64,000 nucleotides of DNA from Bacteroidales bacterium MB20-C3-3 (lineage in GTDB: Bacteria; Bacteroidota; Bacteroidia; Bacteroidales; UBA932). The stretch lies in contig CP141202.1 in assembly GCA_035609245.1 (NCBI GenBank), positions 434,001 through 498,000 on the forward strand, given 5' to 3'. Position 1 is the first letter of the stretch. The number at the start of each line of letters is the position of its first letter. Made by a program: the position numbers and the translations under genes. The notes beneath the pieces are model-generated. The model was not told the origin of the DNA, did not search any database, and saw only the letters and a list, made by a program, of their open reading frames with translations. Below, piece after piece: positions 10,313 to 11,706 of this stretch.

Positions 10313-10789
10313 ATGGGCAGTATAGAAATACGATTAATCGGACAAAATGATATTGAAATTCTAACAAAATACAGAATTGATTACCTGACTGAAATGCAAG
10401 GTGATATATCTGATGAATACAAGTTAAGGCTTCATTCAGAATTATTACGATATTTTTCTGAAGTAATTAGAACGGATACATTTTTTGCATTTATGGCTGT
10501 TATTGATAACAGGGTGCTTGGGTTTGGCGGAATGATAATTAAAAGGATTCCGGGAGATATAAACAGGCCGTTTTATCTGGAGGGAGAGATTCTGAATATG
10601 TACACATTACCTGATGAAAGGAGAAAAGGATACTCATCTTTGATTTTAAAGGAGCTCCTTAATGAGGCTGAAAGGAGGGGAATAAGTAAGGTTTCTCTTC
10701 ATACATCTAAAGATGGTGAGGCTTTATACAGAAGTTTCGGATTCAGTGATCCTATCTACCCAGTATTAGAGTTGGGATTACCTCGCTAA
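10313..10789 (+). CDS. GNAT-family N-acetyltransferase
   Basis: A 158-residue acetyltransferase with the GNAT acetyl-CoA loop DERRKGYSSLILKELLNEAE (a variant of R/Q-x-x-G-x-G/A) and the closing motif SKDGEALYRSFGF. The substrate is unknown. The last seven codons and the TAA lie inside a sequence (10771-10793) repeated exactly at 11458-11480, and the gene is followed 4 bases later by the end of an inserted element. The natural 3' end of this gene therefore seems to have been reshaped by, or to have seeded, the repeat array downstream. Confidence 0.87.
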   Translation: MGSIEIRLIGQNDIEILTKYRIDYLTEMQGDISDEYKLRLHSELLRYFSEVIRTDTFFAFMAVIDNRVLGFGGMIIKRIPGDINRPFYLEGEILNMYTLPDERRKGYSSLILKELLNEAERRGISKVSLHTSKDGEALYRSFGFSDPIYPVLELGLPR

Positions 10790-10793
10790 AGCT

Positions 10794-11347
10794 CTAAAGT
10801 TTCCCACATGTGCATTATGATATTATTCCTATAATTTACAGGTGAATTTATCGCATGACATATCACATGTCAAGTAAAAGTGCTTTTTGCAGATCTACTG
10901 AGAGTTACAGCGGTGCGAGTATGTCGTATAACCGGCCAGGAACCGGTAGTATAAACTGCGAAGTACCTTTTAGACTTGGCAGGAGGCGGTGGTTTGACAG
11001 GGATATTTGTTTATCTAACAGTAAGTTAGGTATTTAAAAATTGGTTTTATTAAAAGTTTTTCAAAAAGCAATTTCCAGTTACTTATCTTTAAAGCACATA
11101 TACGAATATCCCTGTCAACCCGTGCCGGGCATGAGGCTTGGTGGATACCCGCCCGCCCGGCCTGAGTTGGCCATTCGGCAAATGATTTTTGCGAAACCCG
11201 TGCGGTTCTAAGTCTCAGATTATAAATGTATAGACAATCCACCTGTCAGGTCACCTGACAGGTGGATTGCTTATGTTTATGTAATCAGCATGTTACAGCA
11301 GTGCGGGTATATAGTTTACTTCTGGTCTTTGACGTGGGAAACTTTAG
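10794..11347. mobile_element. 554-bp non-autonomous inverted-repeat element (MITE-like) with target duplication
   Basis: Perfect 14-bp inverted ends, CTAAAGTTTCCCAC at 10794-10807 and GTGGGAAACTTTAG at 11334-11347, bound a segment with no recognisable gene. Directly outside them is a 7-bp direct repeat TAAAGCT (10787-10793 and 11348-11354). Removing the segment and one TAAAGCT rejoins the flanks into the same sequence found intact at 11457-11500, which makes an insertion the simplest explanation. Inside are a second 14-bp inverted pair (10994-11007 with 11105-11118), a 17-bp hairpin (11235-11269) and an imperfect ~19-bp direct repeat (10904-10922 and 11292-11310). Only short unrecognised frames of 60 and 75 codons occur, so mobilisation would need a transposase supplied in trans. 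The family was not identified. Confidence 0.75.
11235..11269. repeat. 17-bp perfect inverted repeat inside the 554-bp element
   Basis: CAATCCACCTGTCAGGT, one central base, then its exact complement. It lies near the right end of the element. It could fold as an RNA hairpin or cruciform. No T-run follows on either strand, so it is not a typical terminator. Confidence 0.85.
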
Positions 11348-11354
11348 TAAAGCT

Positions 11355-11500
11355 CGGTGATCCCTGGTGGGGCACACACCATTTCTTTTTCTACCGTTGG
11401 GATTACCTCGCTGAAGCTCGGTGATCCCTGGTGGGGGGCATACACCATTTTTTCACCGTTGGGATTACCTCGCTAAAGCTCGGTGATCCCTGGTGGGGGG
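11355..11500. repeat. Tandem repeat, three copies of a ~63-bp unit; insertion target of the 554-bp element
   Basis: CGGTGATCCCTGGTGGGG recurs at 11355, 11419 and 11481 (periods 64 and 62). Each is preceded by GTTGGGATTACCTCGCT(A/G)AAGCT: intact at 11396 and 11458, and at 10771 in the copy split by the insertion, where it forms the end of the GNAT gene. GGGATTACC and GGTGATCCC in each unit can pair (9 bp, one wobble) around a loop containing TAAAGCT, the site duplicated by the insertion. No coding function is evident. Confidence 0.85.
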
Positions 11501-11505
11501 CTCTT

Positions 11506-11633
11506 ACAAAGAAAAAACTAAATGGCTTTGCCATTTTTATTTACCGGTGAAGCCGCAGCAAATGCATTTGCATGCGGGCAGCACCGGTAAATAAAAAAAG
11601 CTGTGCAATGCACAGCTTTAGTTTTTTCTTTGT
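11506..11633. repeat. 128-bp nested palindromic element (four-way-junction fold) abutting tRNA-Arg
   Basis: A 17-bp perfect outer inverted repeat (11506-11522 with 11617-11633) encloses several parts. On the left is a hairpin AATGGC-TTT-GCCATT (11521-11535, competing for two outer-stem bases). A 14-bp perfect inner repeat follows (TTTATTTACCGGTG 11536-11549 with 11582-11595). At the centre is GCAAATGCATTTGC (11558-11571). On the right is a hairpin with 10-base arms (11597-11606 with 11610-11619). The outer stem uses the discriminator base of the adjacent tRNA. Both strands can fold the same way, so a DNA cruciform or a structured RNA is possible. Confidence 0.85.
11587..11619 (-). terminator. 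Rho-independent terminator of tRNA-Arg
   Basis: Read on the minus strand, just 3' of the tRNA, AAAGCTGTGC-ATT-GCACAGCTTT is followed by more Ts and TATTTACC. It is a textbook intrinsic terminator and forms one lobe of the nested palindrome. Confidence 0.8.
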
Positions 11634-11706
11634 GATTCGGTTGGGATTCGAACCCAAGACCCACAGCTTAGAAGGCTGTTGCTCTATCCAACTGAGCTAC
11701 CGAACC
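11633..11706 (-). tRNA. tRNA-Arg (anticodon UCU)
   Basis: 74 nt that fold as a complete cloverleaf on the minus strand: acceptor GGTTCGG with CCGAATC (one G-U pair), D-arm GCTC/GAGC, anticodon arm ACAGC-CTTCTAA-GCTGT (UCU at 34-36, reading AGA), five-base variable loop, T-arm TTGGG-TTCGAAT-CCCAA, discriminator A. CCA is not encoded. AGA is a heavily used arginine codon in the neighbouring genes. Confidence 0.97.

Follow-up and report, generated by a model that had tools for sequence, protein, structure and literature searches.

What kind of element lies between an acetyltransferase gene and a palindromic repeat array beside a tRNA-Arg gene in Bacteroidales bacterium MB20-C3-3, and by what mechanism was it inserted? 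The window, a stretch of 64,000 nucleotides of contig CP141202.1, is part of a closed 2.38-Mb contig (genome G000) and contains a 554-bp segment with inverted ends, flanked by two copies of a short direct repeat (Table 1). The segment is very probably a non-autonomous DNA transposon (MITE) whose ends are served in trans by a DDE-type transposase. This reading is based on the 14-bp ends, the 7-bp duplication, the absence of coding capacity, the presence of several copies, a nearby intact target, and the occurrence of the same ends around unrelated interiors.

Table 1. Features in and around the 554-bp segment (window coordinates, Bacteroidales bacterium MB20-C3-3, CP141202.1).
Feature	Position	Strand	Length	Remarks
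GNAT acetyltransferase gene	10313-10789	+		directly upstream of element; intact after insertion
TAAAGCT, left copy of target duplication	10787-10793		7 bp	
Probable MITE segment	10794-11347		554 bp	
Left terminal inverted repeat CTAAAGTTTCCCAC	10794-10807	+	14 bp	
Left module, truncated	10808-10926	+		3' strand GTTACAGCGGTGCGAGTAT at its end
Palindromic unit B, GGTTTGACAGGGATATT...AATATCCCTGTCAACC	10991-11121		131 bp	dispersed alone in genome too, in both orientations
GC-rich linker CCCGCCCGCCCGGCCTGAGTTGGCCATTCGGCA...	11122-11193	+		occurs too in repeat clusters around RAYT-like genes
Right module including right end	11194-11347	+		outer stem CCCGTGCGG...GCAGTGCGGG around central hairpin
Central hairpin CAATCCACCTGTCAGGT / ACCTGACAGGTGGATTG	11235-11269			17-bp arms
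Right terminal inverted repeat GTGGGAAACTTTAG	11334-11347	-	14 bp	
TAAAGCT, right copy of target duplication	11348-11354		7 bp	
Target-array units without interruption	11396-11501	+		
tRNA-Arg(TCT) gene	11632-11706	-		adjoins array; same neighbour in sister species

The two ends are complementary at 14 of 14 positions. An earlier note, made from the letters of the window, had described the inverted ends, the 7-bp duplication and the length of 554 bp, and all three are correct to the base. It had also seen no recognisable gene, and none of the ORFs within the element has a Pfam match. The segment thus has the size (<1 kb) and the coding content, without a transposase gene, of a MITE. The left duplication starts at the acetyltransferase stop codon, whose TAA is the TAA of TAAAGCT, so no gene was broken; the insertion is intergenic, and its consequence for the window is small.

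The target itself can be read from the array downstream of the element, which consists of ~62-bp units with a palindromic core, GGGATTACC-TCGCTAAAGCTC-GGTGATCCC, and TAAAGCT in the loop. The unit GTTGGGATTACCTCGCTAAAGCTC (11458-11481) is unbroken and retains the intact empty site at 11474-11480, as the earlier note had stated, and the middle unit reads TGAAGCT in place of TAAAGCT. Sister genomes have the same type of array beside the same tRNA-Arg, for example G007 (L156), where TAAAGCT is unbroken.

Arrays of this kind adjoin tRNA genes in many genomes of the genus (window 11386-11501; L151-L153, L156, L162); the neighbour is tRNA-Arg, and in G019 a different tRNA, apparently tRNA-Ser. Between array and tRNA-Arg the window also contains a large palindrome (11506-11633) with 17-bp outer arms (11506-11522/11617-11633) and a 21-bp inverted repeat inside (11534-11597). 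Sister species have comparable structures after this tRNA (L151, L153, L156).

The location of the element within a palindromic repeat array, in a palindrome-rich genome, favours an origin of ends and direct repeats by chance or by rearrangement within the array rather than by transposition. This origin has virtually no probability and is refuted by recurrence, since the same 14-mer delimits other segments, at unrelated sites of several species, and exact 7-bp duplications occur there. The exact 14-mer occurs 14 times in the genome, and its reversed control 0 times. It is present in 9 of 25 genomes of the genus, with several copies in five of them (G000, 14; the same-species G149, 13; G019, 30; G007, 8; G020, 8). 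In a sample of 374 genomes from the family's other genera, three have it, in one copy each, about the chance expectation. A scan of a genome collection with the right-end pattern returned 10 places in the same-species MAG JAGPLK and single matches in Edwardsiella and a proteobacterial MAG, which are probably chance. The same pattern was not found in the viral contigs scanned, and searches of plasmid and phage DNA with the 554 bp gave no match. The MITE family is real and restricted to the genus, a genus-wide family defined by 14 bp of end sequence alone; it is apparently undescribed in the literature searched, coverage of which was partial.

In another genus of the family (G084), locus L103 (2150-2350 and 2908) contains repeats with CTAAAGTTTCCTAACGG beside TTCGACGAAG, and one CTAAAGTTTCCCACC. 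These are possibly a relative of the 14-bp ends, possibly chance.

Target duplication was assessed across all inward-facing ends with at most two mismatches that lie 60-2500 bp apart in the fetched loci, which gave 23 pairs. Five of them have an exact 7-bp duplication: TAAAGCT in the window, TGTTGGG (L025), TCACATG (L092), AACTTTG (L101) and TTAACCT (L125). Two more match at 6 of 7 positions. No duplication match exceeds 7 bp, and 15 shifted offsets (1-15 bases) gave 0 matches. The target duplication of these five cases is therefore of fixed length, as in MITEs, and the pairs with matching flanks come from four species. The main reading of the earlier note, precise insertion of a transposase-less and undescribed Bacteroidota MITE, is borne out by these copies. 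The search that it had proposed, for the ends in the genome and its relatives, turned up additional copies that share the ends and carry exact 7-bp duplications, both in this genome and in three other species.

The remaining 16 of the 23 pairs, most of them in G019, have no matching duplication, and later recombination or decay is needed to explain them. End types in G019 are combined in different ways, and its pairs without duplication suggest recombination between copies. Unmatched flanks in many pairs are also what coupling sequences would give if a site-specific tyrosine recombinase integrated the element, with the ends as core-type arms and the 7 bp as the crossover overlap; 7 bp is a typical overlap length for these enzymes. 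Such integration is nonetheless extremely improbable here: five different exact duplications at unrelated sequences would mean many targets, each with exact duplication required, and on plain inspection no integrase gene was evident between the ends.

The 554 bp as query align to the genome in 95 pieces at ~36 places; most of these are partial and lack the ends. Only two copies of G000 retain both ends together with the duplication, and the left end has been lost from most copies. Four complete copies in G020 (297-304 bp) are alike over their whole length, and the likeness starts and stops exactly with the ends. A DNA search for the interior in 60 relatives gave nothing beyond trivial matches. 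On sequence comparison, the ends are common to species of the genus, and the interiors differ between species and are not recognisably related. The family thus offers a clean natural example of ends that are kept while everything between them is turned over.

A duplication of fixed length, together with short conserved ends around freely varying interiors, is the pattern that a DDE transposase leaves when it acts in trans on MITEs. Such an enzyme would recognise only the 14-bp ends, would move or copy anything between them, and would insert it with a 7-bp staggered cut. The ends would be conserved by selection for mobility, leaving interiors free to change; the palindromic modules found in this species probably came to lie between the ends by capture and were reshuffled by recombination. 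The window element sits in the loop of one of the palindromic repeats, just after a stop codon.

A transposase-bearing element between the same ends, another check proposed in the earlier note, was not found in the four transposase families searched. Profile searches with PF01609 and PF12762 detected elements in G000 or G007, none with these ends; the DDE_Tnp_1 elements of these two genomes, considered as the parent, were rejected for their different ends (TGTCCACTAAAAATT). PF13612 and NF033593 gave nothing in six genomes, and no ORF recurs beside the 14-bp ends at 40 loci. Families such as IS66, IS256, IS1182, ISL3, IS1380 and IS21 lie outside these four. The parent enzyme, still missing, is a well-defined object for such searches.

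A 2-kb copy at G000:C1:1447799-1449801 (L025), with both ends and the TGTTGGG duplication, was considered as a full-length parent and rejected. Its two ORFs (145 and 233 aa, with an rve domain) belong to a separate, nested IS3-family element (L025 2376-3766) with ends TGTGCCGTCCTGAAATAGG and a 3-bp TAG duplication. This element occupies the same position in MITE copies L025 and L031, and the shared position indicates that the IS-bearing copy was probably multiplied or converted. The IS3-family element also occurs in L013, within a hairpin module that adjoins a RAYT-like gene.

The earlier note had called the window insertion recent, which is doubtful. The insertion is also present in the same-species MAG JAGPLK010000057.1 (L070), at 99.8% identity over 3.4 kb, and the best long matches of the element elsewhere in the genome are mostly 77-88% identical. 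Perfect ends are a sign of conservation, not of youth. Several other loci were examined as empty sites and set aside. Strain differences at L060/L018 and L061/L026 have boundaries other than the 14-bp ends, and the orthologous pairs L090/L094 and L091/L096 are old, partly deleted copies rather than clean empty sites.

The interior of the window copy is a mosaic of modules. Over its first 60 bases, the element matches the complete copy L025 at 100% identity, after which ~61 bp of L025 are absent. The 17-bp hairpin, the 14-bp internal inverted repeat and the ~19-bp direct repeat listed in the earlier note are all present. The internal inverted repeat consists of the two ends of unit B (10991-11121), and the direct repeat (GTTACAGCGGTGCGAGTAT near 10909 and GTTACAGCAGTGCGGGTAT near 11293) corresponds to the 3' strand that two related modules have in common. 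The right module is exactly 154 nt long in 8 of 11 copies of the genome.

The earlier note had also suggested that the element may host a structured RNA. On this account, the element would be an RNA gene, or carry one, with inverted repeats on its flanks by coincidence. The plus strand has a very stable RNA fold (z -10.1). The central hairpin of the right modules exists in two unlike sequence types (for example L036 versus L017, L020, L027 and L029) within the identical length of 154 nt; nearly all stem pairs hold in both, and 12 predicted pairs are changed on both sides. The minus strand folds as well (z -9.1), however, and so does the DNA (z -9.3), which is the behaviour to be expected of palindromic DNA. 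The double changes come from just two sequence types and hence represent few independent events; they also fit upkeep of the palindrome at the DNA level; templated copying during replication can keep palindromes perfect. Rfam at gathering level recognises no family except the tRNA, and the modules occur outside the element as well. The RNA account is thus not supported by these data and is very improbable.

Some of the modules found outside the 14-bp ends lie near RAYT-like (Y1) transposase genes. About 16 of 36 module places fall within 774-916 kb (G000:C1:774000-916100, L010-L019), 142 kb or 6% of the genome. Three of the five Y1_Tnp genes of the genome (789821, 800459 and 843164) are inside this repeat cluster with modules close by, as would be expected if the modules and the whole element were moved by RAYT-like Y1 (HUH) transposases, in a REPIN-like system, and not by a DDE enzyme. 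HUH transposition is not known to leave a target duplication, and the exact 7-bp duplications run contrary to it. The other two Y1 genes have no modules, no Y1 gene was seen between the ends, and the 14-mer lies within ~1.5 kb at only 1 of 15 Y1 loci (L146). HUH movement of the whole element is therefore very improbable; for the interior modules, movement by HUH enzymes may still be right.

Several ends in the genome were seen to lie directly against GGTTGAC/GTCAACC, the sequence with which unit B terminates, and palindrome ends may accordingly be favoured targets. A broader proposal joins these elements with the MITE reading into a two-layer mobile system in one genus. A transposase of an unrecognised family, acting on the 14-bp ends, would package hairpin modules that RAYT-like HUH transposases make and disperse, and insertion would prefer palindromic sites (unit-B ends, tRNA-adjacent repeat loops). 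This proposal is tentative and on balance rather unlikely. If it is true, two unrelated transposition mechanisms share one cargo. The interior connects MITEs with the hairpins that accompany RAYTs in Bacteroidota, which are poorly understood.

Among known systems, the hairpin-forming MITEs NEMIS/Correia and RUP resemble the present element in being non-coding, having inverted ends and being able to fold robustly. Their target duplications and parents differ from those of the present element. These repeats of Neisseria and of Streptococcus pneumoniae, respectively, are non-coding sequences with inverted ends and robust secondary structures, and their mobility is attributed to transposases by which these ends are recognised (PMC3733652).

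REP, BIME and REPIN sequences bear on the interior modules only, which are likewise large dispersed hairpins in mosaic clusters, some near RAYT-like Y1 genes (PMC6006769, PMC3733652). That RAYTs of Bacteroidetes are flanked by atypical secondary structures with copies elsewhere is on record (PMC6006769). The whole element differs from these systems in its DDE-type ends and 7-bp target duplication, and no GTAG/CGTC foot came to notice in the modules.

In kind, the present element comes closest to MITEs known from Porphyromonas gingivalis; it differs from them in ends, duplication, interior and parent. BrickBuilt has 12-bp ends (GAGACCTTTGCA) that match IS5-family ISPg elements, 4-bp duplications and a 23-nt minisatellite as its interior (PMC4596501); the present element has unrelated 14-bp ends, a 7-bp duplication and an interior of palindromic modules, with no parent IS found. 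BrickBuilt and MITE239/MITE464/MITEPgRS are likewise intergenic, non-coding elements of Bacteroidales with inverted ends and ~10-20 copies, and the P. gingivalis elements also include MITEs nested in MITEs and many copies without one end (PMC4596501).
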